DNA from: an uncultured Elusimicrobia bacterium
GTDB taxonomy: Bacteria; Elusimicrobiota; Endomicrobiia; Endomicrobiales; CAIRNS01
NCBI GenBank assembly: GCA_903880015.1
Contig: CAIRNS010000029.1
Span: 1-64,000, forward strand
DNA length: 64,000 nt
Direction of reading: 5' to 3'
Position 1 is the first letter of the stretch; every line of letters begins with the position of its first letter. A model generated the notes under the pieces. The model had not been told where the DNA came from. It was given only the letters and a program-made list of their open reading frames with translations, and made no database searches. The position numbers and the translations under genes were made by a program. Shown here piece by piece: positions 19,020 through 43,029 of this stretch.

Positions 19020-21682
19020 CCGAGAATCACATTGATACGGTGTTTCCCCGGAGAAAGCGGCTGTATCAGATTACCCGTAATTGATTCGCCATCAACGGAT
19101 ATTGAACGGACTTTCGCATTGGGCACCAGGCGAGGATTGTTAAACGCGATTTCATAATCAGCTCCGCGAAAATGAATGGATAAAGAACATACTTTAAATT
19201 CCTGAGTTGACGGAAGACAAGGATCTATGCGCAATCCGTCAATCTCTCCCCGGACGCCGAAAAAGAAATTCTGAAATAAGTGACGAGTCCATCCACCGGA
19301 TGCCGTAAGCATCGGGTATTCGCCGCGGCAGGGATAATTGGGATTATCGGAGGAAATATAATACTCCGGTATCCACGGTCCGGTCCGCAAACGCTGTTGG
19401 GGATGATTAAGGGGATTTATGCCTGAAAAAATCTTAAATGCCTCGTCGGCACGTTTTCTTCTGAGAAGCGCCCATGCCATAAAAAGATTGGCATGGCAGA
19501 AAAGAGCGTTATTCTCTTTGGTTCCCGCGGCAAAACCCGAAATCCGGCCGACGGATTTATCAAACTTCGTATAGGGCGGATAGTTCAGTTTCAAGGCACC
19601 ACCGGCAATAGCATCGGCAAGATGCGTCGTCGTTGATTTCAACACCGTCTCTACTGCGCCGATACGGTCAGCAGCTTCAGAAAGCAGAGACCATGTCTGA
19701 GGCATAAGCATCATGACAAAATCATCACTTGTGGGGTTTTTCTTTTTTGTCCCCCGTGGTTTGAAAATACTATCAACAGGTCTACCATCAGCGTGGAAAT
19801 ATGCAGTGTAATATTCACCGTTCCACGCCACTTCATTGACCCGCTCTATGGTAACTTTTGCTTTGGCGCGCAAGTCAGCGACGATATCCTTGATGGGTAC
19901 TTTCTTTATTCTGCCGGAAATTTCGGCGTTTACATGGTCAAGGAAAGTTCTCAGCTTGAATTGCTTGTACTCAACGGGGAAATTTGCAATCGGTTCCTCG
20001 CTCCAGTCCTCAATTAGTTCGGTCAGTTCTTCGAAAAGATCGACTGATACTGTGGCGGTCCGGCGAGCGAATTCTTCAAGGAAATTCGCCAGCTCTACGC
20101 AGTCCTGGGCAAGCCCCATCGAGAAAGTTACATTTTCCCCTTTGACCTGATCAACCGCATCATTCCAATCTGCCCTGTTCTGACGCAAAAGATTCATACT
20201 GCCGACATCATAAAACATGGTCAACAATTGAGTCAGTAAATGTTCGAGAACCGTTCCCGTATACATCACGCCGTCTTTTGTTTTTTGGCGTTCAATACGC
20301 CCAGGTCCCCAGGCAATATCCTTGAGATCTCCACGATCCCGATAAGAGTCCTTGAAGTAGGCGATAGAATCATTGACTAAAAAGGTGATATCGCCCAGAT
20401 AATTTATCAGTAGCAGAACTGTCTGCGTTGTCCAGTAAGGATGGTCGCACCACAAACCATTGATTTCATCGCTGCCAAATTCCTTCGTCCGGGCAAAAAA
20501 CCGGGTAGCGTTTGTCCCATCAAGGCGAATCCCCGCCAGCGTGTGGAGAGTGCGTTGTTTAAGTCCGTGAGGGTCGATTATGGTTGCGGCCATCATGTCC
20601 TGCCAAAAGTCACGCCAGCCGGAAAAATCGGAGCCATAATCGAACTGAGGGTGTCCCGTGTTCCCGAACCAATAGCGCATGGAGAGCTGATAGCACCACC
20701 ATGTGTTCCATAACAAACTGAAATCTTTGTCAGCTGTTGTGATCGTTATCCGCGTGGTGCGTTCTTTCCAAAACGCAACCAATGCATTAAACGACTGCTC
20801 GGACTTAGCCCAAGTATATTCATGTATCTTCGATTCCGGTTCGCCATGATGAATCCCGTTCAAAACGACGATTTTCACTGACTCACCCGGCTTGAGGATT
20901 ATATTCTTAAACTCAATGGCACCGACAGCCTCTTTGCCATAGCACTGCATTTTTGGCGGTTGATTTTTTAAAATCGCTTCAGGGAACATCCATGAGTAGT
21001 CAGCTCCTAAAAAACTCTCCCGATCCGTATAGAACCTGTTGCCCTTTTTCCCCTTTGATGTCTCTGCGGCCATAAAATAGCATATGTCGCTTGCTTCGGT
21101 TTTTCCCTCAACCCATTCAAGCCCGGGAAGTATTTCAATATGGTCGGTGACACGGCTGGTGTTGTATAACCGCACCACATCACGATGATACTCCGTATAT
21201 GCTCGATTTCCGCCGAAAATGGGTACCGTAGGAATAAAATCAATCGCCTGTTTCTTTGATGATGTGTTCGTGACAGTCACCATCCACACTTCCATCATTT
21301 CTTTGAGAGGAACGAACACGGTCGCCTCAACGGCAAGACCGAGTGCTTTTGATGTCGCCGAAAACCGAGCATAGCCCAACCCCATCTCAAAGGACTGTTT
21401 TGTGGTGCGGTCGTCAGAAGGAAACGGATTATTTGCAAGCCATGGATTTTCACCGGCCGGCCGCACCCATAGAAACCGGCCATTATTCTTGGGAAAGTTT
21501 TGCCCGTCAAACTCGCCAAACATCCGGGTATAATCAAATCCGCTGAACCCGCGAAGATAATTGTCGCTGATCGCAAAATACTGCGGTCCGTTTGCCAGCA
21601 TATGCACCAGCGGCTGCGGCAAAGCCCGTACATTTTTAACTACGCATTCTCCGGCATCGTTATAATCCCATAATTTGACCAT
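19016..21682 (-). CDS. GH94-family glycoside phosphorylase (cellobiose phosphorylase-like)
   Basis: An 888-aa cytoplasmic enzyme (no signal peptide) resembling cellobiose/laminaribiose-type phosphorylases, which split beta-glucosides with phosphate to give alpha-glucose-1-phosphate. An N-terminal beta-sandwich (about 1-300) is followed by an (alpha/alpha)6 barrel. The motif GWRDFWQDMM is at 355-364, the catalytic-acid motif DWND at 505-508, and GLRIDPCLPS near the C-terminus. The exact disaccharide cannot be read from sequence. It is coupled to the mutase gene downstream (4-nt overlap) and preceded by a cupin gene. AAGGAGC provides a good ribosome-binding site. Confidence 0.85.
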   Translation of the reverse strand: MVKLWDYNDAGECVVKNVRALPQPLVHMLANGPQYFAISDNYLRGFSGFDYTRMFGEFDGQNFPKNNGRFLWVRPAGENPWLANNPFPSDDRTTKQSFEMGLGYARFSATSKALGLAVEATVFVPLKEMMEVWMVTVTNTSSKKQAIDFIPTVPIFGGNRAYTEYHRDVVRLYNTSRVTDHIEILPGLEWVEGKTEASDICYFMAAETSKGKKGNRFYTDRESFLGADYSWMFPEAILKNQPPKMQCYGKEAVGAIEFKNIILKPGESVKIVVLNGIHHGEPESKIHEYTWAKSEQSFNALVAFWKERTTRITITTADKDFSLLWNTWWCYQLSMRYWFGNTGHPQFDYGSDFSGWRDFWQDMMAATIIDPHGLKQRTLHTLAGIRLDGTNATRFFARTKEFGSDEINGLWCDHPYWTTQTVLLLINYLGDITFLVNDSIAYFKDSYRDRGDLKDIAWGPGRIERQKTKDGVMYTGTVLEHLLTQLLTMFYDVGSMNLLRQNRADWNDAVDQVKGENVTFSMGLAQDCVELANFLEEFARRTATVSVDLFEELTELIEDWSEEPIANFPVEYKQFKLRTFLDHVNAEISGRIKKVPIKDIVADLRAKAKVTIERVNEVAWNGEYYTAYFHADGRPVDSIFKPRGTKKKNPTSDDFVMMLMPQTWSLLSEAADRIGAVETVLKSTTTHLADAIAGGALKLNYPPYTKFDKSVGRISGFAAGTKENNALFCHANLFMAWALLRRKRADEAFKIFSGINPLNHPQQRLRTGPWIPEYYISSDNPNYPCRGEYPMLTASGGWTRHLFQNFFFGVRGEIDGLRIDPCLPSTQEFKVCSLSIHFRGADYEIAFNNPRLVPNAKVRSISVDGESITGNLIQPLSPGKHRINVILG

Positions 21683-24261: not shown

Positions 24262-26190
24262 TCACATCTTAAATAGATTCTTTACGGCATCACCCGCCTG
24301 CTTCTTAAGGTCTTCGGCGGCTTTATTCTTTTCCTGATTGACGCGGTCCTTCATTTCATTTTCGCGGGAGGATGCCTGCGATTTTGCAGCATCTACCTGA
24401 GCCTGCAAACCATTCTGCTTCCCCGTTAACTGACCAAGCAGTTCATCCCGCTTCGCGGAAAATTGCCCCAGCAGTTCCTGCTTTTTTTGTTCAGTAAGCT
24501 TATCGATTTCAGCACGCACGCGGCTTTGCGCTTCAGCCATCTTATCGCCAAATAGCTTTTGAAGGCGGTCAGAAAGCAACTTGTCTATGTTTGACGACAC
24601 CGACATAGAAAGATTGTCCATGGTTCCGCTCGTTTTCGCCGTTACCTGGATTTTGGGAATACCATCCCAAAGTTTGGCAAGGGTTGCGTGCAATTCATCA
24701 ACAGCAGTCGATGAACGAACCAAAGAAAATTGAGATATCGTTAAATCCATAGTACAGTCAATCGTGTCGTTTTGCAGCATGAAGCGCGCATTGACTTCGG
24801 CAGTCCCAGACTCAAAAGGCGGCAAATACTCAGAGCTCGGGATACCCAAGTCCGCCGGATTCATGCCGGCATAATTAACTGTAATAGTGTCTTGCGGAAC
24901 CGCAATACAATGATTAAACAACGCTTCGAGAGCCAATTTCTTCCCAGCCTGCGTTCCATGCAGCTTTGCAACCAATGGTCTACCCAGCAGGACGGGATCA
25001 GAAGTAATGTCAGTGACAGTCCCGGTAAAAGCAAGTGGTTCCCCTTGTTTACCCGTACCGCCGGTTGTGCCGTTCATGGCCATCATGGCTATAAGAAAAT
25101 CTGGAGGATTATAGGCGGTTGGAAAACTGACATCCGTGCCACGCTGGCGTTTGCGTACGATTTTCGTATCATCCTTCTTTCGCGGCGGCATATATTTCTG
25201 AACCAGATGCATATAATACATCGCTGATTGTACACGGTTGACCCACAGTGGGCCGAACAGCGATTGCGACACATTGCCTACGGAAAGCGAAGGAAGTTTA
25301 AGCTTTGATGAAACTGATCTCCAATCGCTGTCTTTAAGTGCATTAATCTTGACAATCATATCCTTCTGGTCGCCGAAATCAGCCGTTAGTCGGGTTTTCA
25401 TCGTGGCAATGTCGCTCACGGTTTTCTCAGTATCTTCTTTAACCTGCTTTAACTGAGCAAGTTTTGCTTTTGCTGCGGCTATGTCTTCGACAGAATTAAC
25501 CTTAATTTTTGAAACATCATCAATCGCTGCCCGCAGTGCAGCACTCTTTTGATCGACATTAATGGCACCGATAGATGTCTGATACTGCGCATATTTGTCC
25601 TGGACACCCTTCTGCAGGGTATCCATCTCTTTAATTGATGAAAGGTCCGCAGCAGATATAAGTTTTTCAGGGGAAAAATTCTTCAGCATGCCCTGCGCTG
25701 AAGTAATGGCTGCGACAGAAGGCAGTCCGGAAACTTCCTTCGAACCTTTTTCCTTAATTGCATTAAAAAGCTTATAACTTATGCTGTTCTTGTTTTCTTT
25801 AGCGGCGTTTTTCTCAAGTGCAGCTATTTTTTTAGGCGGCAAAGCACCCGACACATCGCGCCGCGTACCCCACGAAATACCCGTGACGGACATTTCATTG
25901 ATAATAAGCTTTTTTGACAGTAACGGCAGGGGCTTCATGCTGAATTGGACCCGTTCAAAGGCAAAGAGGTTCTTCCAAACATCACTTTTGTCGGCAATAG
26001 TCAGCCCGGATATAGAAATTGATAAATCCCGCATCCGTGTTTTAACCGATGCCACTTCGACTTTCGCGCCAAAAACACCTTCACCCGATGAAATAAGTGC
26101 ATGTTTGAGTATGCTGTCTAAAAAGAAAAAAGTGCCCGCAACCACGGCGACAATAATTAAACCGACAGGAATGACGAATTTCCATCGCAT
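24262..26190 (-). CDS. TIGR03545-family membrane-anchored protein (AsmA-like)
   Basis: A 642-aa protein with one N-terminal transmembrane helix (residues 5-25) and a large periplasmic part. The segment after the anchor (VEVASVKTRMRDLSISISGL and VQFSMKPLPLLSKKLIINEM) resembles AsmA/YhdP-like domains that bridge membranes. A helical middle section follows, then a second AsmA-like beta region and a charged coiled-coil tail (about 545-640) rich in Lys/Gln/Glu. TIGR03545 proteins are typically encoded next to TIGR03546, as here (14 nt apart). The role in envelope lipid or polymer transport is only inferred. Confidence 0.75.
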   Translation of the reverse strand: MRWKFVIPVGLIIVAVVAGTFFFLDSILKHALISSGEGVFGAKVEVASVKTRMRDLSISISGLTIADKSDVWKNLFAFERVQFSMKPLPLLSKKLIINEMSVTGISWGTRRDVSGALPPKKIAALEKNAAKENKNSISYKLFNAIKEKGSKEVSGLPSVAAITSAQGMLKNFSPEKLISAADLSSIKEMDTLQKGVQDKYAQYQTSIGAINVDQKSAALRAAIDDVSKIKVNSVEDIAAAKAKLAQLKQVKEDTEKTVSDIATMKTRLTADFGDQKDMIVKINALKDSDWRSVSSKLKLPSLSVGNVSQSLFGPLWVNRVQSAMYYMHLVQKYMPPRKKDDTKIVRKRQRGTDVSFPTAYNPPDFLIAMMAMNGTTGGTGKQGEPLAFTGTVTDITSDPVLLGRPLVAKLHGTQAGKKLALEALFNHCIAVPQDTITVNYAGMNPADLGIPSSEYLPPFESGTAEVNARFMLQNDTIDCTMDLTISQFSLVRSSTAVDELHATLAKLWDGIPKIQVTAKTSGTMDNLSMSVSSNIDKLLSDRLQKLFGDKMAEAQSRVRAEIDKLTEQKKQELLGQFSAKRDELLGQLTGKQNGLQAQVDAAKSQASSRENEMKDRVNQEKNKAAEDLKKQAGDAVKNLFKM

Positions 26191-26204
26191 AATGTTACTC
26201 CGTT

Positions 26205-26720
26205 TTATTGATTGTATTTGTCATACAGGTTGAGTGAAGAAGAAAGCTTGAAAACTTTCATGATCTTCCATTGTTCGACTTTCGAGGCAAGATTCGCGCG
26301 ATAGTATACGATAAACCAGCGCATTCCCAGAAAAACGGGAACACACAGAATCAGTGCAATACAAAAACTGCCGAGCACAACAGTGTTATTGAAACGGGTA
26401 AATGCAATAAGCGGCAGATTATAGAGATGCGCCCAGACAGGCGTCAATCCGGTTGAGGTGACTAACAGGAAATACCCTATACGGTCAGCCAGCGGATCAG
26501 CGAAATAACCAATGACAGAAAAAAGGGTCGCCATAAGCGCGGCTGAACCTATATTGACATTGAGTAAAAGAATCACCAGCACCATCCCAGCGGTAAGCAG
26601 GTTTTTCGCGGGCAAAATACCAATCATCATGCCCAGCATACATCCGCCGGCGATTTGATTGGGTGAAATTTTTGAATGGAGCGTCGTCATTATGCTCTTA
26701 AGGATTTTTAACCAAAACAT
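26205..26720 (-). CDS. TIGR03546-family membrane protein
   Basis: A 171-aa inner-membrane protein with about four transmembrane segments. It starts with SKISPNQIAGGCMLGMMIGILPAKN, a DUF2062-like opening shared by the TIGR03546 family. The ATG has GGAGG 5 nt upstream and overlaps the phosphatase stop by 13 nt. It is followed 14 nt later by its usual partner TIGR03545. No catalytic motif is visible. Confidence 0.78.
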   Translation of the reverse strand: MFWLKILKSIMTTLHSKISPNQIAGGCMLGMMIGILPAKNLLTAGMVLVILLLNVNIGSAALMATLFSVIGYFADPLADRIGYFLLVTSTGLTPVWAHLYNLPLIAFTRFNNTVVLGSFCIALILCVPVFLGMRWFIVYYRANLASKVEQWKIMKVFKLSSSLNLYDKYNQ

Positions 26721-27358
26721 ACCGCCTCCATAAGTTCCTGTGGATGCTCCACAAACAGATCAGGATGTAATTGTATCAAACTATCATATTCCCCATATCC
26801 ATAGCCGACAGCAATTGAATGAACACCTGCGGACTGAGCGCACAGCACATCATTTACCCCGTCGCCTATAAGAACGGTCTTATTCGGAGCAACGCCTAAT
26901 TTTGACATCATCGCTATAAGAGCGTCCGGGGCAGGTTTTCGTATGTTCATAGTATCACTTCCCCACACCAGCGCGAAATCATCAAATATGCCAAGTCCTT
27001 TAAGAATAACTCGTGAGTGAACTTCCTGCTTATTAGTCAACACTGCCATTGTACCATGCCGGCAACCGCTAATCACCGTCGATATCCCCGGATACAGAAC
27101 AGTTGCATCGAGCAAATGGGTTGAATAGTATTCAAGGAACAATTGTAAACCGTGCTGTCGTTGAGTGACTGATACATTCGGCAACACTAACGCCATAAGC
27201 GCCTTGACACCGTTGCCGATAAACGAACGCATCTCCTTCAACGACAACAGCGGAAGGGTATATATGGTACGGACATGATTTGCCGCAGTCGTCAAATCCT
27301 GCAAAGAATCTATGAGCGTTCCGTCAAGATCAAATACAATTAAATCAAACCGCGTCAT
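26708..27358 (-). CDS. HAD-superfamily phosphatase, phosphoglycolate phosphatase-like
   Basis: A 216-aa HAD hydrolase. Motif I is FDLDGTL (nucleophile Asp), motif II LTNK, then the conserved Lys in RKPAPDAL and the acidic motif IGDGVNDVLCA. The helical cap is of the Gph/PGP type. The substrate is probably a small sugar phosphate or phosphoglycolate, not determinable here. ATG 27358 overlaps the phosphorylase stop as TAATG, so the two are translationally coupled; an open frame back to 27436 is overlap with the phosphorylase gene. Confidence 0.85.
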   Translation of the reverse strand: MTRFDLIVFDLDGTLIDSLQDLTTAANHVRTIYTLPLLSLKEMRSFIGNGVKALMALVLPNVSVTQRQHGLQLFLEYYSTHLLDATVLYPGISTVISGCRHGTMAVLTNKQEVHSRVILKGLGIFDDFALVWGSDTMNIRKPAPDALIAMMSKLGVAPNKTVLIGDGVNDVLCAQSAGVHSIAVGYGYGEYDSLIQLHPDLFVEHPQELMEAVCFG

Positions 27359-29952
27359 TATTGCCAAGTAATCAATCCGGGAATATACAACTCTTTCCCG
27401 TCTCTGAACGGCAGGACACGAACGACATACCCGCATGAACCGACCCGCGCAGCCGTCACAACAGCTTCATACTGATATGTGCCGTTGTCATTGGTTCCGA
27501 CAAGTTTTGTGGGAGTTACGAAGGTTGCACTCAAACGGTGCTTTGAGTCGATATATCCCGCGTATACCTGCACACAGACATCTTCCGGCTTCAAAGAACC
27601 AAGATCGATCTTTGCGTTAACTTTAAATGTCCCGCCAAGCGGGATATCATCGGTAAGATCATCACCCGTTGTAACGATTTTGACGAGCGGCCAGTTAGCG
27701 GTCAATTTCTTTGTCCACTCGGCAAGGCGTTTTACCGGAGAATAGTTATCCTGCGACAAAACACCTGTCTGAGCACTTGCCGGCATATAAAACTTCCGTG
27801 TATATTCTTCTATCATCCGAGTCGAATTAAAGGCAGGACATATCGTCTGCATTGCAATCTTCATCTTGTGTATCCACTGCCGAGGCAAACCATCTTGGCC
27901 TCGTAGATAATACAGCGGGACAATATCTTTTTCAAGAATATCATAAATCGCCTTGCTTTCTATCTCATCTTGATATTCCTGATCAGCATATTCCTCGCCG
28001 GAACCAATAATCCACCCGTTGAGCCCGTTATATCCCTCGCACCACCATCCGTCAAGGATACTCAGATTCAGCACGCCGTTGACCGCCGCTTTCATGCCGC
28101 TCGTGCCCGATGCTTCTGCGGGCCGGCGAGGATTGTTCAGCCAGATGTCCGTTCCCTGAACCAAATAATGAGCAACCGTCATATCATAATCTTCAATAAA
28201 CACTATTTTATGACGCAAATCGTAATCTTTGACGATGTGAATAATAGTTTTGATGACTTCTTTGCCGACATTGTCCTGGGGATGCGCTTTACCGGCGATT
28301 ATCAATTGTACCGGCCGGTCTTTCTGCGTCAATATTTTCTTGAGCCGGTCCATATCGCGAAACAAAAGATTTCCCCGCTTATAGCCCGCAAAGCGGCGCG
28401 AAAAACCAATAGTAAGCGCCTCGGGATCAAGCACTTCTTCGGCCATATTGATTTCATACGGGGATTCGCCACGGCGAATCAGTTGAACCTTCAAGCGCTG
28501 ACGCGCAAACGACACCAGGCGTTCGCGACGGCGTTCATGACTGCGCCATAACTCCGCGTCAGGGATGTCCCCCACCCGCTGCCAAATGGTCAAATCAGCA
28601 GGGTCATCTTTCCAAACCTGCCCGATATAGCGGTCAAATAACCCGGCCATCTCGTAAGAAATCCATGTGTTGGCGTGAATCCCGTTAGTAATTGAAGTAA
28701 TCGGTATGTCGCTGCGCGGCACATTAGGCCAAATGCTCTGCCACATCCCGCGAGAAATGGTCCCGTGCAGGCGACTGACACCATTGGCAAAACCGGTAAA
28801 ACGAAGCGCAAGAACGGTCATTGAAAAATTGCTTTTGAGGTCAGAGGGCGTTTCCCGTCCCAGCGCAAGTAACGTTTCGGCTGTTAACCCCATTTTTTTG
28901 TACAGAGGTAAAATATATTTTTCTATAAGCTCAGGGGAAAAAACCTCGTTGCCGGCAGGCACCGGAGTATGCGTTGTAAAAACGCACGACGCCTTCACGA
29001 GCTCTTTGGCTTCATTAAATGAAAACCCTTTCTCCTCCATATGCATCCGGATGCGCTCAAAAAGTAAAAAAGCGGAGTGACCTTCATTAATATGGATAAC
29101 GCTCGGATTGTATCCAAGCACTTTCAACGCCCGCATACCGCCAATCCCGAGAACAGTCTCCTGGCGAAGGCGCATCTCGCGGTCACCGCCGTAAAGCTGT
29201 GAAGTGATTTCCCGATCTTCAGGGCGATTACCATCGATATCAGTATCAAGCAAATAGAGTTTGACTCGTCCTACCTGAACTTTCCAAATCTGCGCCCAGA
29301 CCTTGCCGCCGGGATGTTCCACACATATCTGCAGGGGCATGCCTTTTTCATCTTTTACCAACTGCATAGGCATTTTAAAAAAATGATTCTCGACATATTC
29401 TTCCTGCTGCCATCCGTCAAAGTTAAGATATTGTTTGAAATAACCATACCGATAGAGAAGTCCGACACCAACAAGGGGCAAGCCCATGTCGCTGGCCGAT
29501 TTGAGATGATCGCCAGAAAGAATCCCCAAGCCACCTGAGTAGATTGGCAAACATTCGCTGATCCCGAATTCAGTTGAAAAATAGGCAATTGATGATCCGT
29601 TTTGATCGGGAAATTCCCTTGAAAACCAAGTCGGCATTTCTAAATAGCGTTTTAATCCGCCAGCTATGCGCTCCAGCTGAGTTACGAAACTATCATCTTT
29701 GGAAAGTTCCTGTAACCGCGTCTGGTCAATAGATCCCAATAACCGCACGGGATTATGATAGGTCTCTTCCCACAAAGCACGGTCCATGCGACGAAAAAGC
29801 TCCACCGCATCGCTGGTCCAGACCCACCAAAGGTTATACGCAATATCCAGAAGAGGGGTTAGATTCTCGGGTAAAGAAGGCACAACGACATACGATGTTG
29901 AGTTTGCAGCTACATATTTCTCCGCGTCTAAATTAAATGGGTCCTTTTGCAT
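27358..29952 (-). CDS. glgP: Alpha-glucan (glycogen/maltodextrin) phosphorylase, TIGR02094 type
   Basis: An 864-aa PLP-dependent phosphorylase releasing glucose-1-phosphate from alpha-1,4-glucans. It has the N-terminal DUF3417 segment (YNLWWVWTSDAVELFRRM), the GT35 core with YFSTEFGISECLPIYSGGLG, THTPVPAGNEVF and YNPSVIHINEGHSAF, and the PLP-lysine region SGTSGMKAAVNGVLNLSI. This is the short, mostly unregulated form found in thermophiles, archaea and many candidate phyla. It sits 14 nt after the VWA-like lipoprotein gene, and the phosphatase gene overlaps its stop codon. Confidence 0.93.
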   Translation of the reverse strand: MQKDPFNLDAEKYVAANSTSYVVVPSLPENLTPLLDIAYNLWWVWTSDAVELFRRMDRALWEETYHNPVRLLGSIDQTRLQELSKDDSFVTQLERIAGGLKRYLEMPTWFSREFPDQNGSSIAYFSTEFGISECLPIYSGGLGILSGDHLKSASDMGLPLVGVGLLYRYGYFKQYLNFDGWQQEEYVENHFFKMPMQLVKDEKGMPLQICVEHPGGKVWAQIWKVQVGRVKLYLLDTDIDGNRPEDREITSQLYGGDREMRLRQETVLGIGGMRALKVLGYNPSVIHINEGHSAFLLFERIRMHMEEKGFSFNEAKELVKASCVFTTHTPVPAGNEVFSPELIEKYILPLYKKMGLTAETLLALGRETPSDLKSNFSMTVLALRFTGFANGVSRLHGTISRGMWQSIWPNVPRSDIPITSITNGIHANTWISYEMAGLFDRYIGQVWKDDPADLTIWQRVGDIPDAELWRSHERRRERLVSFARQRLKVQLIRRGESPYEINMAEEVLDPEALTIGFSRRFAGYKRGNLLFRDMDRLKKILTQKDRPVQLIIAGKAHPQDNVGKEVIKTIIHIVKDYDLRHKIVFIEDYDMTVAHYLVQGTDIWLNNPRRPAEASGTSGMKAAVNGVLNLSILDGWWCEGYNGLNGWIIGSGEEYADQEYQDEIESKAIYDILEKDIVPLYYLRGQDGLPRQWIHKMKIAMQTICPAFNSTRMIEEYTRKFYMPASAQTGVLSQDNYSPVKRLAEWTKKLTANWPLVKIVTTGDDLTDDIPLGGTFKVNAKIDLGSLKPEDVCVQVYAGYIDSKHRLSATFVTPTKLVGTNDNGTYQYEAVVTAARVGSCGYVVRVLPFRDGKELYIPGLITWQ

Positions 29953-29966
29953 TAGATGTCCCTTTC

Positions 29967-31253
29967 CTATTCCAATATACCTTTGATTTTATCCTGATTA
30001 AATCCGCCGCCGGAATCTTTGAGCGCATCAAACATAAAATAACGCACATGAATTTTCTTGCCGGGAACTATATCTTGCAGCATCTTTGTCCAATAATCGA
30101 GTATTTCCGTATTGTATTCTTTTTTAGGCACACAAAATATGACACTGACATCTTTGATATTTTCCCACGGTATACCGGCGATAACTGAGTCCTTCGTGCC
30201 AGCACTTGCAAATGAATTCTTTACTTCATCAATAAGGGTCTTATCCTGAACACCACTCAATTCATACGATCCGGCTGGATCATTTTTCCCGTCACCGATA
30301 ATAATATAGCGAAGCTCGATACCGATGTCTCGGTCAAACGCACCCCATGCACTGACAAGATTCTGAACTTCCATGAAGCTACGCCGGAAAAATGTACCAT
30401 AATCAGTGCCGGCATGAAACACACGCCACCCGGCAGACAAACTTTGATTTACCAAGCGATTGATCGTTTCATTGAGCTCCGCCGCCGAAGGCAACGTTGC
30501 CGTAGAACTACTCGTTCCCACTAAAAAAAATAAATTTGAATTAAGATGAGGGATTGATCCGTACAAACCCATTTTTACTATATCGGGATTAAGCGGCTCC
30601 TTGTTTGCCTCTTCAATGCCGGCAACAAACATAGTAACAAGCTGGGTTACATCGGCTTGCAGTTGACGTACTTTCTCGGGTTGATCGGGCACCGTCACTT
30701 CAACGGAGAACTTATCCAACCCCATTTTAGCCCTAACGATGCAGCGTTTGATCTGCTGAACACTCTGAGGATTAAGAGAGTCATCAAATTTTTCCGGAAC
30801 TGTGGTACGCTCATAATCAAATTTTGTGAGCGATACAGCTAGCAAATTTAAATTCGCATGAACTTCGTCAGCCATGGACAGCATCGCACGTGGTCGTGAA
30901 ACCCCGTTGGCAAGAGCGACAATGACATCGGTAACATTGTCTAGAGCCCGACGCATCCCTTCTCTGTCGAACTGTTTTACAAAATCTCCGCTGACTCGTT
31001 TTGTCCTGACGACAAATGTCTTTTCGTCACTGACAATATTAATTTTATTAACACAATCTCTCAGATCACTAACCACTTCAAGTGCCTGCTCCCGAGAAAT
31101 AGATGCCGCCTTTTTCTGAGTGACCATGGCACTGTGCCAGAAAGAACGACTTGCATCAACACCAATGATGTATACACGCGGCGATTCAGGCGCCCTGCCG
31201 CCGCACGCAGTCAACAACAACACGATTCCGGCAAAAATACGTATACGCCTCAT
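29967..31253 (-). CDS. Lipoprotein with VWA-like MIDAS motif, unknown function
   Basis: A 428-aa protein beginning with a signal peptide and lipobox LTAC (Cys17). Right after a beta strand (RVYIIGV) comes DASRS (33-37), which fits the DxSxS metal-ion-dependent adhesion site of von Willebrand A domains. A later strand reads ELRYIIIGDGKND (313-325), like the 'DG' strand of VWA folds, separated from the first by a long helical insertion. No known family is recognised. Its start overlaps the stop of the polytopic membrane protein by 1 nt, so the two probably act together at the envelope. Confidence 0.6.
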   Translation of the reverse strand: MRRIRIFAGIVLLLTACGGRAPESPRVYIIGVDASRSFWHSAMVTQKKAASISREQALEVVSDLRDCVNKINIVSDEKTFVVRTKRVSGDFVKQFDREGMRRALDNVTDVIVALANGVSRPRAMLSMADEVHANLNLLAVSLTKFDYERTTVPEKFDDSLNPQSVQQIKRCIVRAKMGLDKFSVEVTVPDQPEKVRQLQADVTQLVTMFVAGIEEANKEPLNPDIVKMGLYGSIPHLNSNLFFLVGTSSSTATLPSAAELNETINRLVNQSLSAGWRVFHAGTDYGTFFRRSFMEVQNLVSAWGAFDRDIGIELRYIIIGDGKNDPAGSYELSGVQDKTLIDEVKNSFASAGTKDSVIAGIPWENIKDVSVIFCVPKKEYNTEILDYWTKMLQDIVPGKKIHVRYFMFDALKDSGGGFNQDKIKGILE

Positions 31254-32545
31254 TATACCGCTCCTGATTTTTGATCAGAATTATCCTGACCATTTGTTCT
31301 GTTTTCACCTACGGGACTTTCGAGCGCCGGAACATCATTGAACCTGCGGCCGGGCACAAATTTTCCCCAAAAAATTATTGCATTGTGCAGGAATTGCGAT
31401 TGGAATCCATTAGTACTGAAAACAATCATCGGCACAAAAACGAACAATACAAATAATCCGGTATAAATGCCGGTTAGTGGCAGTTTTGAAGCGACTGCCA
31501 AAGTATAGTACGCATATCCCGCGCCGATAACGGTGATAAAACTTTCCAAAAACATGGAAAAAACCATAATCTCGTTAATTTTACGCTCGTTGCGTATAGT
31601 GCGGCATTCGTTTCGCAAACGGACAAAAAATATGCCCAGAATCGGACCGTAGAAATACGCAATGGCAGATTTGTACATCAACACAGGGAAATTATATGTT
31701 TCCCGACGACGGGCATCTGCGGTGGCAAGAATATAACTGCCAATTGTTGTTACAAAAGGAACGAAAGCGACAATGGGCACCAGTATAAGGTCGAGATACA
31801 CTTTTATCTTTACCGGGAACCAGAATATCAATTGCTTAAGGCCCTCATCTGCGGCGATGAACGGAAGAAGTCCTTTGTGAAAGAGCGGCAAAAATCCCAC
31901 ATAAATGAGACAGACCTCCATAAAAAATAGTATCAAAAATCCGGATGTAAAAAATAAGGCGGGAACCAATATGCTGTAAATAAATTTCCATAAAAGAACA
32001 AAAGTTTTTACCAGCACCATAAAGGGATACACGACAAGGATATACGCCGATATCTGAAATGTGTTCGCTGACGAAAAAGGAAGAAAAAGAACAAATAAGA
32101 GCACTTGCAGTACAAACTGAGTTGTGTTAGACCAGTTAGCGCTAAACAAATGCGGATAATATGAGCGCATGACATCCAACGCCAAAATAAAATATTTCAT
32201 CAAAAAAGGGAATATGAGGAAATAGGAAACAATAAGAATAATAGGGAAACGAAACAACAAATCGCTGATACGATCGATGAAAGGCGCTGGGTCGGGATAA
32301 TGTTCGTCTTTTGCCGTGCGAAACTGTTTGAGCAACTCGCCATCTTTATCTTTGGCAATCTTGGGATAATATTTTTTATAATTTAGTTTAAGGGATGATT
32401 TTGGAAATAGGAAGTAAAGAACACTGTCAACCGTCTCAAAGAGAGCTAAACGCACCATGCCCATCGCTATAAGAATTATACTGATAACACAGAGACCAAT
32501 AATCAACAGATCAAGACCTGTTACAACTAATTTGAATCCGGGCAT
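31253..32545 (-). CDS. Polytopic membrane protein of unknown function
   Basis: A 430-aa inner-membrane protein with roughly eight to ten hydrophobic segments, separated by a conserved-looking cytoplasmic loop (LKLNYKKYYPKIAKDKDGELL near residue 50). It matches no family I know. GGAG lies 7 nt before ATG 32545; an in-frame ATG at 32560 is part of that same ribosome-binding region and is less likely. It is the first gene of an eight-gene operon and overlaps the VWA-like lipoprotein gene by 1 nt. Confidence 0.6.
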   Translation of the reverse strand: MPGFKLVVTGLDLLIIGLCVISIILIAMGMVRLALFETVDSVLYFLFPKSSLKLNYKKYYPKIAKDKDGELLKQFRTAKDEHYPDPAPFIDRISDLLFRFPIILIVSYFLIFPFLMKYFILALDVMRSYYPHLFSANWSNTTQFVLQVLLFVLFLPFSSANTFQISAYILVVYPFMVLVKTFVLLWKFIYSILVPALFFTSGFLILFFMEVCLIYVGFLPLFHKGLLPFIAADEGLKQLIFWFPVKIKVYLDLILVPIVAFVPFVTTIGSYILATADARRRETYNFPVLMYKSAIAYFYGPILGIFFVRLRNECRTIRNERKINEIMVFSMFLESFITVIGAGYAYYTLAVASKLPLTGIYTGLFVLFVFVPMIVFSTNGFQSQFLHNAIIFWGKFVPGRRFNDVPALESPVGENRTNGQDNSDQKSGAV

Positions 32546-32621
32546 AGACAAGCTCCTCATGGATCAAATATATATAATATTAGACCTTTTAATGCTATCA
32601 AAATTTAAAAATATAGTCAAT

Positions 32622-32650
32622 AAAAAAACCGCTCATTTCTGAACGGTTTT
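32622..32650 (-). terminator. Intrinsic terminator after tRNA-Gly
   Basis: The stem AAAACCG-T-TCA / TGA-G-CGGTTTT around a GAAA loop is followed by a T run (32628-32622). It ends the gap-pgk-secG-tRNA-Leu-tRNA-Gly unit and insulates it from the downstream membrane-protein operon. Confidence 0.85.
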
Positions 32651-32688
32651 ATTCAACAAAATATAAATTAATCTATTTGTATACTATA

Positions 32689-32760
32689 AGCGGGAGATGG
32701 GGCTTGAACCCACGACCTTCTCGTTGGCAACGAGACGTTCTACCACTGAACTACTCCCGC
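32689..32760 (-). tRNA. tRNA-Gly (GCC)
   Basis: The cloverleaf has acceptor GCGGGAG/CTCCCGC, anticodon arm TCTCG-TTGCCAA-CGAGA (anticodon GCC), T arm GTGGG-TTCAAGC-CCCAT and discriminator T. The 3' CCA is not encoded. It is co-directional with tRNA-Leu, 32 nt downstream of it. Confidence 0.97.
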
Positions 32761-32792
32761 AGAAAACCGATAATGTACTATAAAAATATGTA

Positions 32793-32874
32793 TGCTTGGG
32801 GCGGGACTTGAACCCGCATCCCGTTAGGGACACGCCCCTCAAACGTGCGCGTATGCCAATTCCGCCACCCAAGC
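32793..32874 (-). tRNA. tRNA-Leu (GAG)
   Basis: A class II tRNA of 82 nt: acceptor GCTTGGG/CCCAAGC, anticodon arm CACGT-TTGAGGG-GCGTG (anticodon GAG), long variable arm TCCC-TAAC-GGGA, T arm GCGGG-TTCAAGT-CCCGC, discriminator A. CCA is not encoded. It follows secG by 20 nt, so it is likely cut from the gap-pgk-secG transcript. Confidence 0.97.
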
Positions 32875-32894
32875 ACTGAACTCTGATACTAAAT

Positions 32895-35788: not shown

Positions 35789-36505
35789 TTAATCGCGAGC
35801 TACCGTCACGCAGACGACTGACAATGCACCGGATTTCTTCAGCGCGGCGGCGCAGGCATCCAGTGTTGAGCAGGTTGTAGCAACATCATCAACTAATAAG
35901 ATCTTTTTTCGGTGAATGTGCAAGGGATCCTTCACTGCCATAACTCCCTGCATGTTTTTTAATCTTTCCTGGCGACCAAGAGATGCCTGAACTCGGCCGC
36001 GACGCCGTCGCACAAGCGTATTGGTTATCAGCGGCTTATCAAGCGCTGTCGCGAGAATTCTTCCCAGCAATTCCGCCTGATTATAGCCGCGCAGCCATTG
36101 CTTTGACCAATGCAGAGGGACGGGGATGATACTATCAATATCACTGAGTTCTGGATGTTTTTCCACACAATCAATCAATAGTTTTCCCAGATACCGCGCG
36201 GCATAATCCCGATGAGCGTATTTGAATGCACAAATCAATTTCTTTACCCCCCCTTCATAGCGGGTCGCCGAACGATTGACCGAGAAATGAAAGCCAACGC
36301 CTCTATTACAGAAATAGCAATGCGCCCCCCCGCTTTCAAGAGGTTGTCCACATTTGATGCAAAACAGACCCTCAATACGCTTGACGGCGTCATTACAGCG
36401 CGAACAAACACGGCATGAGTCATTAATCGGCAGATCGGTGCCGCAGATAACGCAGGTAAGCGGGAAGAAGAAAGCAAGAATGTGAGAAAAAAGATTATTT
36501 AGAAT
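35789..36505 (-). CDS. ComF family phosphoribosyltransferase-like protein (non-standard start)
   Basis: ComF proteins carry an N-terminal zinc finger and a PRT domain and support DNA uptake or recycling. The first standard start in frame is a TTG at 36238, which would leave only the PRT domain (IDSIIPVPLHWSKQWLRGYNQAE, then ILLVDDVATTCST). Reading upstream in the same frame without a break gives LTCVICG, SCRVCSRC, FCIKCGQP and HCYFCNRG, which is the missing zinc finger, preceded by the usual hydrophobic leader LFSHILAFFFP. No ATG, GTG or TTG exists in that stretch. ATT at 36505, overlapping the stop of the SprA-like gene, is the best guess and gives 238 aa. Confidence 0.8.
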   Translation of the reverse strand: MLNNLFSHILAFFFPLTCVICGTDLPINDSCRVCSRCNDAVKRIEGLFCIKCGQPLESGGAHCYFCNRGVGFHFSVNRSATRYEGGVKKLICAFKYAHRDYAARYLGKLLIDCVEKHPELSDIDSIIPVPLHWSKQWLRGYNQAELLGRILATALDKPLITNTLVRRRRGRVQASLGRQERLKNMQGVMAVKDPLHIHRKKILLVDDVATTCSTLDACAAALKKSGALSVVCVTVARD

Positions 36506-39500
36506 TGGATAGTCAACTTTCCGGTGGCTTCCAAAGCAGTATAATTGGTTTTGGGGTTATCGCGATACTCAAAGCGGTTCCAACCCAGACCGAGCGACAT
36601 GCGGAAATTCTGGGAGACTTCGTAATCAGCGGTACTGGCAATCGCATAATTAACATTATTATCCCGCTCGATATTCAAACTCGAATTATGCGTCAGATAT
36701 TTTAAGGTTGTGGTAAAAATAAAGCGATTCGTCAACGGGAGAGTGCGGCGCGTGAACGGTATCGGAATTCCCCGCGGGAAGGACATATCCGTGTTGACTT
36801 GTCCGGTGTAAGTATTAGTAAACAATTGTGTGGTCAGGGCGCCGAGTCCGTCAACGCGCCATGTCTGCGCGTTTTCATATCGGACCATGAACCGCCATTT
36901 TCCCGAAGTAAACCCGCTCTGGCTCGACCATGAAATGTCATCGCCCTCTTGCGTCAGCCGATTAAGTACAATATCAAAATCCCGTGTATGCGCAGTGTTG
37001 ACAGTGAAATTAAGGTCCAGCTTTCTTACCAGATTGAACCGCCAATCACCGCCATAGGATTTGGTTTCGCTGTGAGCTATGAGAAGGGTATCCACGGATT
37101 TTTGCTGGAGACGAAAATTAATTTGAGAATCGCTCAGCCAGCGGTCGAGATACAACATTTTTTCCGATTGACTGAGCCCGATAAGCAAATCGGGCCAGAC
37201 ACGCGTATACACATCGCGTTTTGTCCCCGTAATATAGGAATGCTCGTCACTGCCGGAATAAGTAAAATTAGTGGTGACCGTTCTCAGTGGTGACAACCTT
37301 CCATAGAGACCAAGCGCTTCAAACGGATTATACCGCCCTGAGATACGGATATCATTTTTTTGAACTACTGATTTAACGAGATAGTATGTTGTAGTTCCCG
37401 GCGTCGGGATCGCCAGGAGCGGATTATCACGGACAATAAGCTTATCCATGGACGGAATTGCGGCTGTCACCGAGCTGTCGACATTGTCGTAGGAATCGGA
37501 ATCCTGGATGCGAAACGATGACGAAAACCCCAGTGACTGGGTATACGCATAATTAAATATATCCTTGACCTGAAAATTCCATGCCAACTCGCCGGCAGCG
37601 TTGCGCTCGATATATTTTCTTTGCGATGGATACACCGGATTGACAGGGTCAGTGCTCATCGTAAGGTTATAGTTTTCCCGTGTGTTTATCGAATAATTAA
37701 CGCTGGGCTGCAGCCATTTGAATATGGTCAAAGAACTTGTCGCGCCTACATCCTGAGAAGCAGATTTAGGATATTCCCGAGCTACGGTGAAATCTTTATT
37801 CTTTTCTTTGACCTTGTTGATATTGTAGCTCGGGCTGAATAAAAATCCGTTCCACAACTGAAACGGTGTTTTAAGCGCAAATGAATCCGTTATTTCCAGC
37901 GTATGATAATCAGTTATCTGCAAATACTTCTGTGCAGCTAAAGGATCAAGAAATGCGTCAGTGTCAATAATCTTTGTCGACGGATAAACGCGGTAATAAG
38001 AATTTGTCTGACTGTAGCTGCCCGTAACGCTTGTGGGAAGAAAAAATACGCGCGCCGGCGTCGCATAACTAAAATTCCCCAGCAATGTTTCCCGATCTTC
38101 AAGTCGGCTAATCTGCTGAGAATCGATGATACTGCGTTGGTATGTACCCCCCATTTGGGGAAACCATTTACCCAGAGACAAGCTTGAATCTGCAGCGCCG
38201 GTATAGGAAGTGACCCGCCCTTCATCAAGCACTGAAAGCAAATCGTTTTGATTTTGAACAACGGAGGGTGTTATCGTCCGTGAACGCATCATACGGGCAG
38301 TAAACGGCACCCAGGTAATTCCGCCGAGATTTAGCCCTTTAAAACCAAGCTGTCCGGAATCTTCAAGTAAATCGCGATTATAAACTCCCGCTGCAAATGT
38401 CTGGAAATTGCGATTTATCTCTTTGCGGCTCCCGCCCGCAGTAATCGCTCCGACGCGTCCGGCACCCGGCCACAGCAGGTCCATGCTCGCCCGCCACGCC
38501 TCTCCGCTTTTTTTCATTGCATCACTGACATGGATTTCGTTTACCCACACTTCCCCGGTTTTCGGTCCAACCGCCCGCACTCCAATCTTCAACTGACTGA
38601 TATTTGCCAGATTCGGTGTCCCGACTAACTTTATTGTTGCACGAGGATCATCGCTCACCCAATGGTCCGCCTTGTTAGCGCTGCCGACCTGACGAATAGT
38701 TATCAACTGCCAGGTATTCACCCACTCCGCGGGAATGGGCATAGAGTACTCATAATAGTTTAGGTCGCTGCCACCCGCTTGAAGGAAAAAAGTATCACCC
38801 TGCGCCTGTTTGCAGTAAACAAAAAATTTCAAATTACCGTAACTTGAAAAATCATAAGGGCGCCCGGAATAAACAAGGACTGCCCCCAATTGCGTAGTGG
38901 TCGTTCCCACGACATTATATTTAAGCGAAAGTGCCTGTTCTTTTGCCTTGGTAGTGGTAGTTTGAGTTTTATATAACTGCTGATAATAATAATTGTTGGC
39001 AAGGCTCACATAGTCAGAATTATCGGTATTTATGGCAGTTATCGTTAGAGAACTACCGGTTACCGCATTGGCCGTGTCGGCCAACCAGCGATTGCCGACC
39101 ATAGACAACCCGGCAATTGAAATGCTCCCTTTTTGCTGCGATGCCCCGCGAATTGTTACGCGCACCTCGCGAATATTTTTCCAGTCATCGGGAACAGCGA
39201 TATTGAGCGGAATACGGAAAAATTTCCATCCGCTCCAGTCCACCGATGTATGGGCGACTCCGTTAGCGTCAAGTATCGATTTTCCATCGGTGTTTGCCGG
39301 CCCATAGGGGCAACCGGCAGCCGGCAGCTCAACTGTATCAATCTGTCCATTGGCATTAAAATCCTCGCTGTCGAGCTTCCCGTTCCCGGCTCCGATTTTG
39401 GTTATGGATCCGTCGGGATTGACAAAGTCCCATCCAATATCTTCACCTGAATCCAGTGTCCGGTTATAATTAAGGTCTTCCGATTCAAGTCCGGTGTTAT

Positions 39501-41874
39501 TGCTGAATCTCTCGTTAAATGTCCCGTACGACACACTGATTTCTTCACCTTTTCCATCGCCGTTGATCCATGTCTCCAAATACAGTTTCTTTGAGAAATC
39601 CAAACCGCTTGTTGAGAGCGTCTGCACAAGTGAAACCTCATTTGAGTGAAGAAGGTTATAATTGATATTGAGTATTTGCTGTTTATCATCCGTCTGATAT
39701 ACCAAACTCGGGCTGATCTCGCTTTTTGATACTTCCTGGCTGACCCATGTAAGATCGGTGGCATAGAAAGGCACATTGGGACCGGTCGGCGCATAGCGCC
39801 ACTGCTCAGTCAGCATTGAGATACCGTCCTCTTGCTTGATGCCTTCCATTGACTCAACCATGGCTTTGTCCATGATGTTGGGATTTTGTTCGCTCCGCGC
39901 ATATTCACCGCTTACAGACATGGTCACGGAACTCAGTGGTATCTTAATATTTGTTGCACGAGAGTCGACCTCGCCAACCAGCAAACTTGACGGCGTTGAA
40001 CGAATGTCCGGAACAGTCTGGCCTTGAGCGGCAAAATCATACACAAAACTCGACCCGACAAAAATATCTTTCGTGAGAGACAATTCCGAGCGCATACCAA
40101 CGAGCGTTGAACCGCTTGATCCGCCGAAAGGGGCGTAATCATAGGAAACATCGATAACCGTGTTTTCGTCAATACGGTCTTCGTTGTACAAGGTCAGTAT
40201 CCCGGCGTCATAATCAATAAAATAGTCCTCGTTTGCTTTTAATACCCGGGCATTTACGGTAACCCTTTCCGACTGCGGAACGATACCGGGGCGCAGATTG
40301 ATTATCTTAATCCGGTAACGGTATTCAGAAACGATGTTGTACCGGTGTGTATTTGAGGAATACAAATCATCCGGTAACGGTTTGGCGCTTGCCGGATCAA
40401 AATTAAAGATTCCGTTCTCGAAATCAACGACAACATTCGAAGGATATGTGGGAACCGCCTTGTTGCCGGGCATGAGCGTAGCCGGAACAGCAGCATTAAG
40501 ATCCTCTATGCGCAGGATAAAATTTCCGCGGCCGTTATCTCTGACTATTTTTATATTGCCGAGACTGTAAAATGTTTTCAGTTCGGTGGAAACGCCCAAC
40601 GGGTTTGTAATGCCAAGCGCAGCGTTGGCGGTGGATACATTGTTGCGGTCTTTAATTAACAAAGGGTTACCAGGAACGGCACCGCCAGAACTAAGCCATG
40701 TACCGTCATTCTTTTGATAATCAATAGCCACCGCCCAATCAGACCCCAGTCGATTGCGGAAAACAATATTGCCGGTGTGATAATCGACCGTGTAATCCTG
40801 ACCTGCCACAAGAAGGTCGAAGTTTCCCGCATAAGAAAATCCCGGGTTGGGCAACAGTGACGACAATGAAGTGGCGGTGGAAATAACTATTTTCGAATTA
40901 TTATCATTGCGGATATCATCCTGATAAATTTTAACGGTTCCCGCCTTTATAGCATCAACCCCGGCGTTCGTCGCGTAGTATTTAAGCGAAATGAAAGAAG
41001 TATCGGCTATCGTCACGCGGTTAAACTGCGTATTGCCGGTAAAGCGCTTTACTTCGGACAATCCTTTGGTCCGTGAGAAAAAACCCTGCGTATGCAAGGA
41101 CTTGTAGCGGGTATCGAGTTTTACGCCGAACAACTGGCGGGAATAGCCGACGAATTCTGTCGAAGGAAGCGACATGACGATATCGCCGAACGCCGCCTCC
41201 TGAACAAATTCGTTCGGATCGCCTTTGTAAACAACGGATATGTCGCGCTTGTCTGCGACGGTATCGTCAAAATCGACATTAACATTTATCTTTCGCCCCA
41301 CCCGCCCTTTAATGCGCACCTGGAGTTCCTGCTTCATATCGAAACTGCTGGAGTTAACCCGTGTGCCGATCTCAGGCTGGTCGTAAATCGTGGATTTCAT
41401 GGTCACGCCGATTAGTTTTCTGCCTGAAATGAACAACTGCGATTCATACGGCAGTTCGACAGAAAGACCCGGTGGAAGCGGCAGAGGAGCGGGGCGGGTA
41501 ATCGTACTGACCGCCACAGTCGGCTCCTGAGAAACACCGGATTCCTGCGTATGGCGCATTTGTTGCCAACGGTCTTTTGAGTAGTAAACATTCTTATTGG
41601 TATCAAGAAATTCCAGAAATTCGGTTCCGGCAACCCCCTGCGGAGTAGTGGTTGGTAAAGATATTTCATATGCCGTAGCTACCGCAGTAGGTGTGGAAAC
41701 GAAGGGAGTTACAGAATCAGCGGGAGAAGAAATAAGGGTAGCGAAAAAACTTTCTTTGTCAGAACCTAAAATTGAATATTTACTATCAGAAAGGCGGGAA
41801 AAAGGTTCCGCATACGCTGCTCGGGGGGCAAACGAAATGACCATATAAATGAAAATATACAATGCTTTTCGCAT
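36499..41874 (-). CDS. SprA-like giant outer-membrane protein (type IX secretion translocon family)
   Basis: A 1791-aa exported protein with a signal peptide (1-22, cleaved near AYA). The N-terminal part has LSVELPYESQLFISGRK (137-153). It then has MKQELQVRIKGRVGRKINVN and VQEAAFGDIVMSLPSTEFVG with SRQLFGVKL, a block typical of SprA/Sov, the 36-strand translocation pore of T9SS in Bacteroidota. The rest is a long run of amphipathic beta strands, and the last residue is Phe, as in outer-membrane barrels. It is shorter than Bacteroidota SprA (about 2400 aa). No ribosome-binding site is seen; a TATAAT ends 8 nt before the ATG. It is divergent from lptF-lptG. Confidence 0.75.
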   Translation of the reverse strand: MRKALYIFIYMVISFAPRAAYAEPFSRLSDSKYSILGSDKESFFATLISSPADSVTPFVSTPTAVATAYEISLPTTTPQGVAGTEFLEFLDTNKNVYYSKDRWQQMRHTQESGVSQEPTVAVSTITRPAPLPLPPGLSVELPYESQLFISGRKLIGVTMKSTIYDQPEIGTRVNSSSFDMKQELQVRIKGRVGRKINVNVDFDDTVADKRDISVVYKGDPNEFVQEAAFGDIVMSLPSTEFVGYSRQLFGVKLDTRYKSLHTQGFFSRTKGLSEVKRFTGNTQFNRVTIADTSFISLKYYATNAGVDAIKAGTVKIYQDDIRNDNNSKIVISTATSLSSLLPNPGFSYAGNFDLLVAGQDYTVDYHTGNIVFRNRLGSDWAVAIDYQKNDGTWLSSGGAVPGNPLLIKDRNNVSTANAALGITNPLGVSTELKTFYSLGNIKIVRDNGRGNFILRIEDLNAAVPATLMPGNKAVPTYPSNVVVDFENGIFNFDPASAKPLPDDLYSSNTHRYNIVSEYRYRIKIINLRPGIVPQSERVTVNARVLKANEDYFIDYDAGILTLYNEDRIDENTVIDVSYDYAPFGGSSGSTLVGMRSELSLTKDIFVGSSFVYDFAAQGQTVPDIRSTPSSLLVGEVDSRATNIKIPLSSVTMSVSGEYARSEQNPNIMDKAMVESMEGIKQEDGISMLTEQWRYAPTGPNVPFYATDLTWVSQEVSKSEISPSLVYQTDDKQQILNINYNLLHSNEVSLVQTLSTSGLDFSKKLYLETWINGDGKGEEISVSYGTFNERFSNNTGLESEDLNYNRTLDSGEDIGWDFVNPDGSITKIGAGNGKLDSEDFNANGQIDTVELPAAGCPYGPANTDGKSILDANGVAHTSVDWSGWKFFRIPLNIAVPDDWKNIREVRVTIRGASQQKGSISIAGLSMVGNRWLADTANAVTGSSLTITAINTDNSDYVSLANNYYYQQLYKTQTTTTKAKEQALSLKYNVVGTTTTQLGAVLVYSGRPYDFSSYGNLKFFVYCKQAQGDTFFLQAGGSDLNYYEYSMPIPAEWVNTWQLITIRQVGSANKADHWVSDDPRATIKLVGTPNLANISQLKIGVRAVGPKTGEVWVNEIHVSDAMKKSGEAWRASMDLLWPGAGRVGAITAGGSRKEINRNFQTFAAGVYNRDLLEDSGQLGFKGLNLGGITWVPFTARMMRSRTITPSVVQNQNDLLSVLDEGRVTSYTGAADSSLSLGKWFPQMGGTYQRSIIDSQQISRLEDRETLLGNFSYATPARVFFLPTSVTGSYSQTNSYYRVYPSTKIIDTDAFLDPLAAQKYLQITDYHTLEITDSFALKTPFQLWNGFLFSPSYNINKVKEKNKDFTVAREYPKSASQDVGATSSLTIFKWLQPSVNYSINTRENYNLTMSTDPVNPVYPSQRKYIERNAAGELAWNFQVKDIFNYAYTQSLGFSSSFRIQDSDSYDNVDSSVTAAIPSMDKLIVRDNPLLAIPTPGTTTYYLVKSVVQKNDIRISGRYNPFEALGLYGRLSPLRTVTTNFTYSGSDEHSYITGTKRDVYTRVWPDLLIGLSQSEKMLYLDRWLSDSQINFRLQQKSVDTLLIAHSETKSYGGDWRFNLVRKLDLNFTVNTAHTRDFDIVLNRLTQEGDDISWSSQSGFTSGKWRFMVRYENAQTWRVDGLGALTTQLFTNTYTGQVNTDMSFPRGIPIPFTRRTLPLTNRFIFTTTLKYLTHNSSLNIERDNNVNYAIASTADYEVSQNFRMSLGLGWNRFEYRDNPKTNYTALEATGKLTIQF

Positions 41875-41934: not shown

Positions 41935-43026
41935 ATGAAGATCGTTCACCGCTATGTTATCAGGGAATTCATCGAAGCATCCTTTTTTGGGCTAGTGGTT
42001 TTTTCCACAATTTTACTGCTCGACCAGGTATTTCAGCTTATTAATCTGATACTCTCAAAACACGTTTCTGTTTTTCTTGTTGCCAAACTGTTTCTCTTGG
42101 TTCTTCCCAACATCTTTTCGCTGACGGTCCCCATGGCAACCCTTTTTGGCATTTTGCTAGCTTTCGGCCGCCTTTCCGAAGATAACGAGATAACAGCCCT
42201 GCGCGGAACGGGATCCGCCTACGGCTCCTTTACTTTCCCGATACTTATCTGTGCGGCTGCACTCAGTTTTTCGCTGATATATTTTAATCAATTTTTGTCC
42301 CCAAACACCCACAAAAGCTTCCGGAAGATGTACACCGAGATATTAACCAATACGCCGTTGATTAGATTTGAAGAAAAAACAATTACCACAATCGGCGAGT
42401 ATCATCTGTATGTAAAACGCTCCGATACTGATGCGGGCGTTCTGCGCGGTATCAATATTTATAAGTTTTCAAACGAGGAAGTTGGCGTTCCGTGGCGCAT
42501 CGCCGCTTCTTCAGGGACGGTCGCCGTAACGCCGCAAGCGGTGATATTAACTTTGCACAACGGCTATTGGCAAAAACCAAACCCTGCCAGACCGGGCAAT
42601 TTGATTCACATGACATTTCGCACCTATATTTTCCCCATCCCCATAAACGACAAAGCACTACCGGCAAGCCAGTCGCTGAGAGAAATGAACTTTAACGAAC
42701 TTCGTCAGGAAATAGCGACCTACCGGACACGAAAAATGCCTACCAATTTCCTTGAAAATGAGTTCTGGTTGCGATTCGTTTTGGCACTTGCCCCATTGAT
42801 GTTCGCAATCATCGCTATCCCCTTGGGGATTATCACTGAAAAAGGCGCAAAATCGATCGGATTCGGCATGAGTTTATTAATATTGTTTGGATTTTATATA
42901 TTGCTGGTCACCGCTATGAACATTGGCGAGAACGGCTACATACGACCCGGGATTATTTTGTGGCTTCCCCATATAGTCCTTCTGGCTGCCGGCAGTTTTC
43001 TCTGGAAAAAAATGTTGAGGAAATAA
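41935..43026 (+). CDS. lptF: LptF/LptG family LPS export permease (YjgP/YjgQ), first copy
   Basis: A 363-aa inner-membrane component of the Lpt ABC transporter, which extracts lipopolysaccharide from the inner membrane and drives it across the periplasm. It has three N-terminal transmembrane helices with the coupling motif AFGRLSEDNEITALRGTG, a periplasmic beta-jellyroll domain (about 115-245), and three C-terminal helices (LALAPLMFAIIAIPLGI). The assignment to F rather than G rests on gene order only. It is followed 3 nt later by its partner and diverges from the SprA-like gene. Confidence 0.88.
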   Translation: MKIVHRYVIREFIEASFFGLVVFSTILLLDQVFQLINLILSKHVSVFLVAKLFLLVLPNIFSLTVPMATLFGILLAFGRLSEDNEITALRGTGSAYGSFTFPILICAAALSFSLIYFNQFLSPNTHKSFRKMYTEILTNTPLIRFEEKTITTIGEYHLYVKRSDTDAGVLRGINIYKFSNEEVGVPWRIAASSGTVAVTPQAVILTLHNGYWQKPNPARPGNLIHMTFRTYIFPIPINDKALPASQSLREMNFNELRQEIATYRTRKMPTNFLENEFWLRFVLALAPLMFAIIAIPLGIITEKGAKSIGFGMSLLILFGFYILLVTAMNIGENGYIRPGIILWLPHIVLLAAGSFLWKKMLRK

Positions 43027-43029
43027 ATT

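Follow-up and report, generated by a model that had tools for sequence, protein, structure and literature searches.

A very rare, overlapping gene pair for a predicted polytopic membrane protein and a putative lipoprotein in two Endomicrobiales bacteria

What do two overlapping genes directly ahead of a glycogen phosphorylase operon encode, and do they belong to that operon? Both lie on the minus strand of the 64,000-nucleotide stretch of DNA analysed here (the window). The first, at 31253..32545, encodes a protein of 430 aa that is judged to be a polytopic membrane protein from its open reading frame (ORF), hydropathy peaks, ribosome-binding site (RBS) and homologue. The second, at 29967..31253, encodes a predicted lipoprotein of 428 aa, recognised by its ORF, a weak LPAM_1 match and a full-length homologue. 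The membrane-protein stop codon and the lipoprotein ATG overlap by 1 nt (TAATG), and each gene has its own AGGAG 7 nt upstream of its ATG. For the membrane protein, the start at 32545 (430 aa) was preferred over the start at 32560 of a longer ORF because of the AGGAG 7 nt before the former. The GC content of the lipoprotein gene (0.445) is close to that of the window (0.464), and that of the membrane-protein gene is lower (0.399). The ORF coordinates and RBSs bear out the first-pass annotation, which had described two genes overlapping by 1 nt.

A single further genome, that of an Endomicrobiales MAG (G004; JAFGGC01, record JAFGGC010000001.1), has full-length relatives of both proteins, with 43% identity over residues 5-401 of the membrane protein and 36% over residues 2-427 of the lipoprotein. 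The two genes are adjacent in the same order as in the window and overlap by 8 nt, the membrane protein having a probable TTG start behind GGAGG. No further relative was found in 96 genomes of the class, searched with the membrane-protein profile, or in 295 genomes of the phylum, searched with both profiles. A scan of 84,980 GTDB species, built on two short peptide patterns that distant relatives would escape, recovered the same MAG and no other relative. The lipoprotein profile also gave weak matches in Endomicrobiaceae genomes (E about 1e-3, ~50-65 residues), which were put down to chance; the one in G020 sits in a gene resembling trpD by eye. Viral contigs held no relatives of the pair, plasmids none of the lipoprotein and phages none of the membrane protein. 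In every phylum genome searched with both profiles, the two members are either both present or both absent, and the two carriers belong to two families of the order. As co-presence, co-absence, gene order and overlap are all preserved, the pair is a real unit. Both genes are real, and the pair is very rare, so far confined to two Endomicrobiales bacteria. The earlier description of an unrecognised module of a polytopic membrane protein and a lipoprotein is supported by this adjacent, overlapping arrangement in a second family at 36-43% identity.

Neither protein, as a single sequence or as a two-row profile, gave a significant match in Pfam, NCBIfam, PHROGs, PADLOC or PDB sequences, in line with the first impression that neither resembles a known family; the lipoprotein with its helical insert removed also had no Pfam match. 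By sequence, the membrane protein is an orphan family. It has 8 strong hydropathy peaks and 8 to 10 predicted transmembrane segments; a hand-placed arrangement of 10 segments with the N-terminus inside gives the best positive-inside balance (19 versus 7 K/R), this topology being a simple estimate from hydropathy and K/R balance made with no trained predictor. The AlphaFold2 model of the membrane protein, made from a two-sequence alignment (pLDDT 39.5), was too poor for a fold search.

The lipoprotein carries more recognisable features. A signal peptide with a lipobox Cys was read by eye in both homologues, MRRIRIFAGIVLLLTACGG in the window and MRKKIFILAAVVLLLGCGS in the second carrier; LPAM_1 matches the window protein weakly, below its cut-off. 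The lipobox is LLLTAC-G, and its Cys lies ~8 residues ahead of the first strand. Two motifs follow: DASRS (31143..31157, minus strand; residues 33-37), a candidate for loop 1 of a metal-ion-dependent MIDAS site, and IIIGDGKND (30279..30305, minus strand; residues 317-325), a candidate for either MIDAS loop 3 or a HAD motif IV-like element, with GDGKND itself at residues 320-325. Both motifs noted in the first reading, and a lipobox, are thus present in the ORF translation. The two lipoproteins have D33, S35, R36, S37 and G320-P326 in common (DASRS versus DCSRS; GDGKNDP), such invariance being weak evidence because only two sequences exist. DxSRS followed by GDGKND occurs in 1 of 191 ORFs examined, with the loci of known VWA genes excluded, and is therefore unusual.

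Does the lipoprotein have a VWA fold, as the first-pass annotation proposed? In both species the two motifs stand in VWA order. The AlphaFold2 model, built from the two-sequence alignment, is of low confidence (pLDDT 48.7, pTM 0.40), too low to decide the fold. Its N-terminal part comprises a strand (26-32) with DASRS at its end, a helix (54-71), a hairpin (79-96) and another helix (97-115). The middle consists of helices (123-230), a strand (241-246), a helix and a further helix (285-303). In the C-terminal part, a strand (312-319) ending in GDGKND is followed by a helix, a strand (366-375), a helix and a last strand (400-407). This order would suit a VWA domain into which a helical segment is inserted, and the model also has a strand-helix unit (241-303) before GDGKND that is absent from a minimal VWA. 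Foldseek returned no match to the model at E <= 0.001; a TFIIH subunit (7o4k) and Sec23/24, which we take to contain vWA domains, were among the weak top-50 matches, none of them significant.

VWA profiles gave no significant match to the lipoprotein, with the insert kept or removed, and 46 VWA domains of relatives, compared with it by hhalign, gave probabilities of 0.2-2.4%. With 20 column shuffles as controls, the N-terminal construct placed DxSRS on the VWA DxSxS loop (VWA columns 7-17) with a score of 19.1 (probability 2.4%), the best shuffle reaching 17.0, and the C-terminal construct scored 13.0, below its own shuffle maximum of 20.4. A VWA_CoxE (GDG-type VWA) set was set aside, as it covered mostly the same VWA places as PF13519. 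Among the MIDAS elements, DxSxS is present after strand 1 in both sequences, and the Asp of the TDG-type loop after strand 4 is supplied by the invariant GDGKND, a string that fits HAD motif IV as well; for the Thr of loop 2, the two-sequence alignment has no clearly conserved Thr/Ser column at the expected place. A VWA fold is thus possible. Motifs, rough order and helical insertion fit it, and the model agrees with an interrupted VWA; against it are the lack of a significant VWA profile match (at most 2.4%), the better score of HAD, the pLDDT of 48.7 and the empty Foldseek search at the above threshold. From the motifs and the model, a VWA fold may be considered the leading idea for the lipoprotein, at close to even chances.

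In the next reading, the lipoprotein would have another alpha/beta fold, Rossmann-like or binding-protein-like, and would serve as the accessory binding component of a transporter or channel formed by the pair. Uptake systems typically combine a lipoprotein with a polytopic membrane protein, the lipoprotein has no significant family or fold match, and the neighbours of the pair in the second carrier include an MscS-type channel and an antiporter of the Na/H-exchanger family. However, the window does not share those neighbours, the Pfam and NCBIfam searches of the pair gave no match to an ABC ATPase or a known permease family, and DxSRS and GDGKND are among the invariant runs. We regard this reading as possible but doubtful.

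A divergent HAD-like Rossmannoid fold, making the lipoprotein a surface phosphatase-like protein or a pseudo-enzyme, would assign D33 to motif I, the helical stretch to a cap, strand 241-246 to a strand with the motif II Ser/Thr, and GDGKND to motif IV. For the GDGxND motif, the HAD motif-IV profile does outscore VWA: GDGKNDP reached 31.4 in hhalign (probability 16-34%), above all 20 sub-construct shuffles (at most 21.7), and in the low-confidence model the strands run in a HAD-like order, motif I and the FFLVG strand being separated by a helical insertion. Yet this match spans only ~32 residues, the Pfam HAD models do not match, the hairpin at 79-96 suits VWA better than a helical cap, and motif I, expected as DxDx(T/V), is DxSRS in both sequences. 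A HAD-like fold is accordingly unlikely.

The second part of the question concerns the operon. Within the window, the pair fills the slot between tRNA-Gly (32689-32760), on its upstream side, and glgP, which follows downstream on the same strand after a 14-nt gap. A terminator-like hairpin with a T-run (32625..32650, minus strand) lies between tRNA-Gly and the pair and separates the latter from pgk, secG and the tRNAs; an AT-rich region upstream of the pair (32561..32620, minus strand) contains promoter-like hexamers, TTGATA-16-TATTAT at 32601-32574, picked out by consensus scan. From the gap and the shared strand, it is plausible that the pair opens an operon with glgP in this genome. The order glgP-HAD-TIGR03546-TIGR03545 (window 24262-29952, minus strand) is conserved in Endomicrobia. 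Around TIGR03545, it was found in 9 of ten other Endomicrobia loci compared, the exception (L033) having the TIGR pair in place and lacking glgP and the HAD phosphatase beside it. A GH94-family phosphorylase-like protein is encoded nearby (window 19016-21682, minus strand).

The membrane protein-lipoprotein pair is present at none of these ten loci. In the second carrier, the operon is intact on contig C41 and the pair is encoded on another, C28, flanked by a Na/H-exchanger/TrkA_N antiporter on one side and by a small putative lipoprotein and then DUF1846 on the other. Because this operon is complete without the pair and the other loci are pair-free, the linkage to TIGR03545/TIGR03546 claimed in the first-pass annotation is refuted as a conserved association by the neighbourhood comparison. 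That the pair is functionally part of the operon, as the same strand and 14-nt gap in the window might suggest, is very improbable given the separate contigs in the second carrier and the presence of the operon, unaccompanied by the pair, in G001, G006, G007, G009, G011, G013, G014 and G024.

The order secG, tRNA-Leu, tRNA-Gly, glgP is syntenic in four loci (L025, L026, L027 and L029), which suggests that the pair was missing from the ancestral arrangement. Across genomes, the slot after tRNA-Gly in the segment secG/tRNA-Leu(gag)/tRNA-Gly(gcc)/glgP (window 32561-32875) varies in content, and in L029 it is filled by a different gene, for a membrane glycosyltransferase of the PMT_2 family. The slot lies 3' of tRNA-Gly, but a mobile-element origin was rejected: there is no flanking tRNA-end repeat, and inspection of the ORF list by eye turned up no integrase. 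The genes beside the pair are not the same in the two carriers and offer no hint of its function. We tentatively view the pair as an accessory module with a sparse distribution, inserted ahead of a conserved operon and not functionally part of it.

Elsewhere in the window, a 1791-aa protein with no Pfam match (36499-41874, minus strand) resembles by eye an SprA-type outer-membrane translocon, its gene being divergent from LptF/G-like genes at 41935-44106. Beside these, 44124-45791 (minus strand) encodes a protein with an M6 (immune inhibitor A-type) peptidase domain that matches FlgD_ig weakly and may be a protease exported to the surface.

How the pair might work, we infer from the features above. 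An integral inner-membrane protein and a lipoprotein on the periplasmic side would form an obligate pair. The Rossmann-like alpha/beta domain of the lipoprotein, starting only ~8 residues past the predicted lipid anchor, would rest close to the membrane and probably use DxSRS and GDGKND to bind a divalent metal, much as VWA/MIDAS sites do. It may act as a sensor or ligand-binding domain that recognises a ligand or partner, and so the lipoprotein could gate or recruit the membrane protein. An obligate pair forming a two-subunit envelope complex, with a probably metal-binding lipoprotein domain and accessory to the operon, is the best explanation overall, albeit one held at somewhat less than even confidence. 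Slightly more tentative is the specific version, an undescribed complex, restricted to rare Endomicrobiales, in which a lipid-anchored, insertion-bearing VWA-like MIDAS domain would control a membrane protein of a new family. Should the lipoprotein turn out to be a MIDAS-bearing VWA protein, the pair would represent a novel means of linking a metal-dependent binding domain with a membrane protein. As found, the two genes are a clearly bounded orphan pair from a phylum that has received little study. In practice, the chief outcome is that annotation should keep them out of the TIGR03545/TIGR03546 system.

Compared with known systems, the lipoprotein shares with VWA/MIDAS proteins (PF13519/PF00092; e.g. 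the PF13519 proteins of the same genome, G000:C2) a DxSxS after the first hydrophobic strand, a (G)DG ending a later strand and an approximate alpha/beta order. It differs from them in having no significant profile match and no identifiable MIDAS Thr, in its ~110-residue helical insert and extra strand-helix unit, in its predicted lipid anchor and in its orphan polytopic partner. With HAD phosphatases (PF13419) it has in common the hhhhGDGxND motif and a helical stretch between the first and second motif strands, but its motif I is DxSRS instead of DxDxT and it has no Pfam match. The TIGR03545/TIGR03546 pair is encoded downstream in the window, on the same strand; it has no detectable sequence relation to the pair studied here, is widespread in Endomicrobia without it, and is unlinked to it in the sole other carrier.
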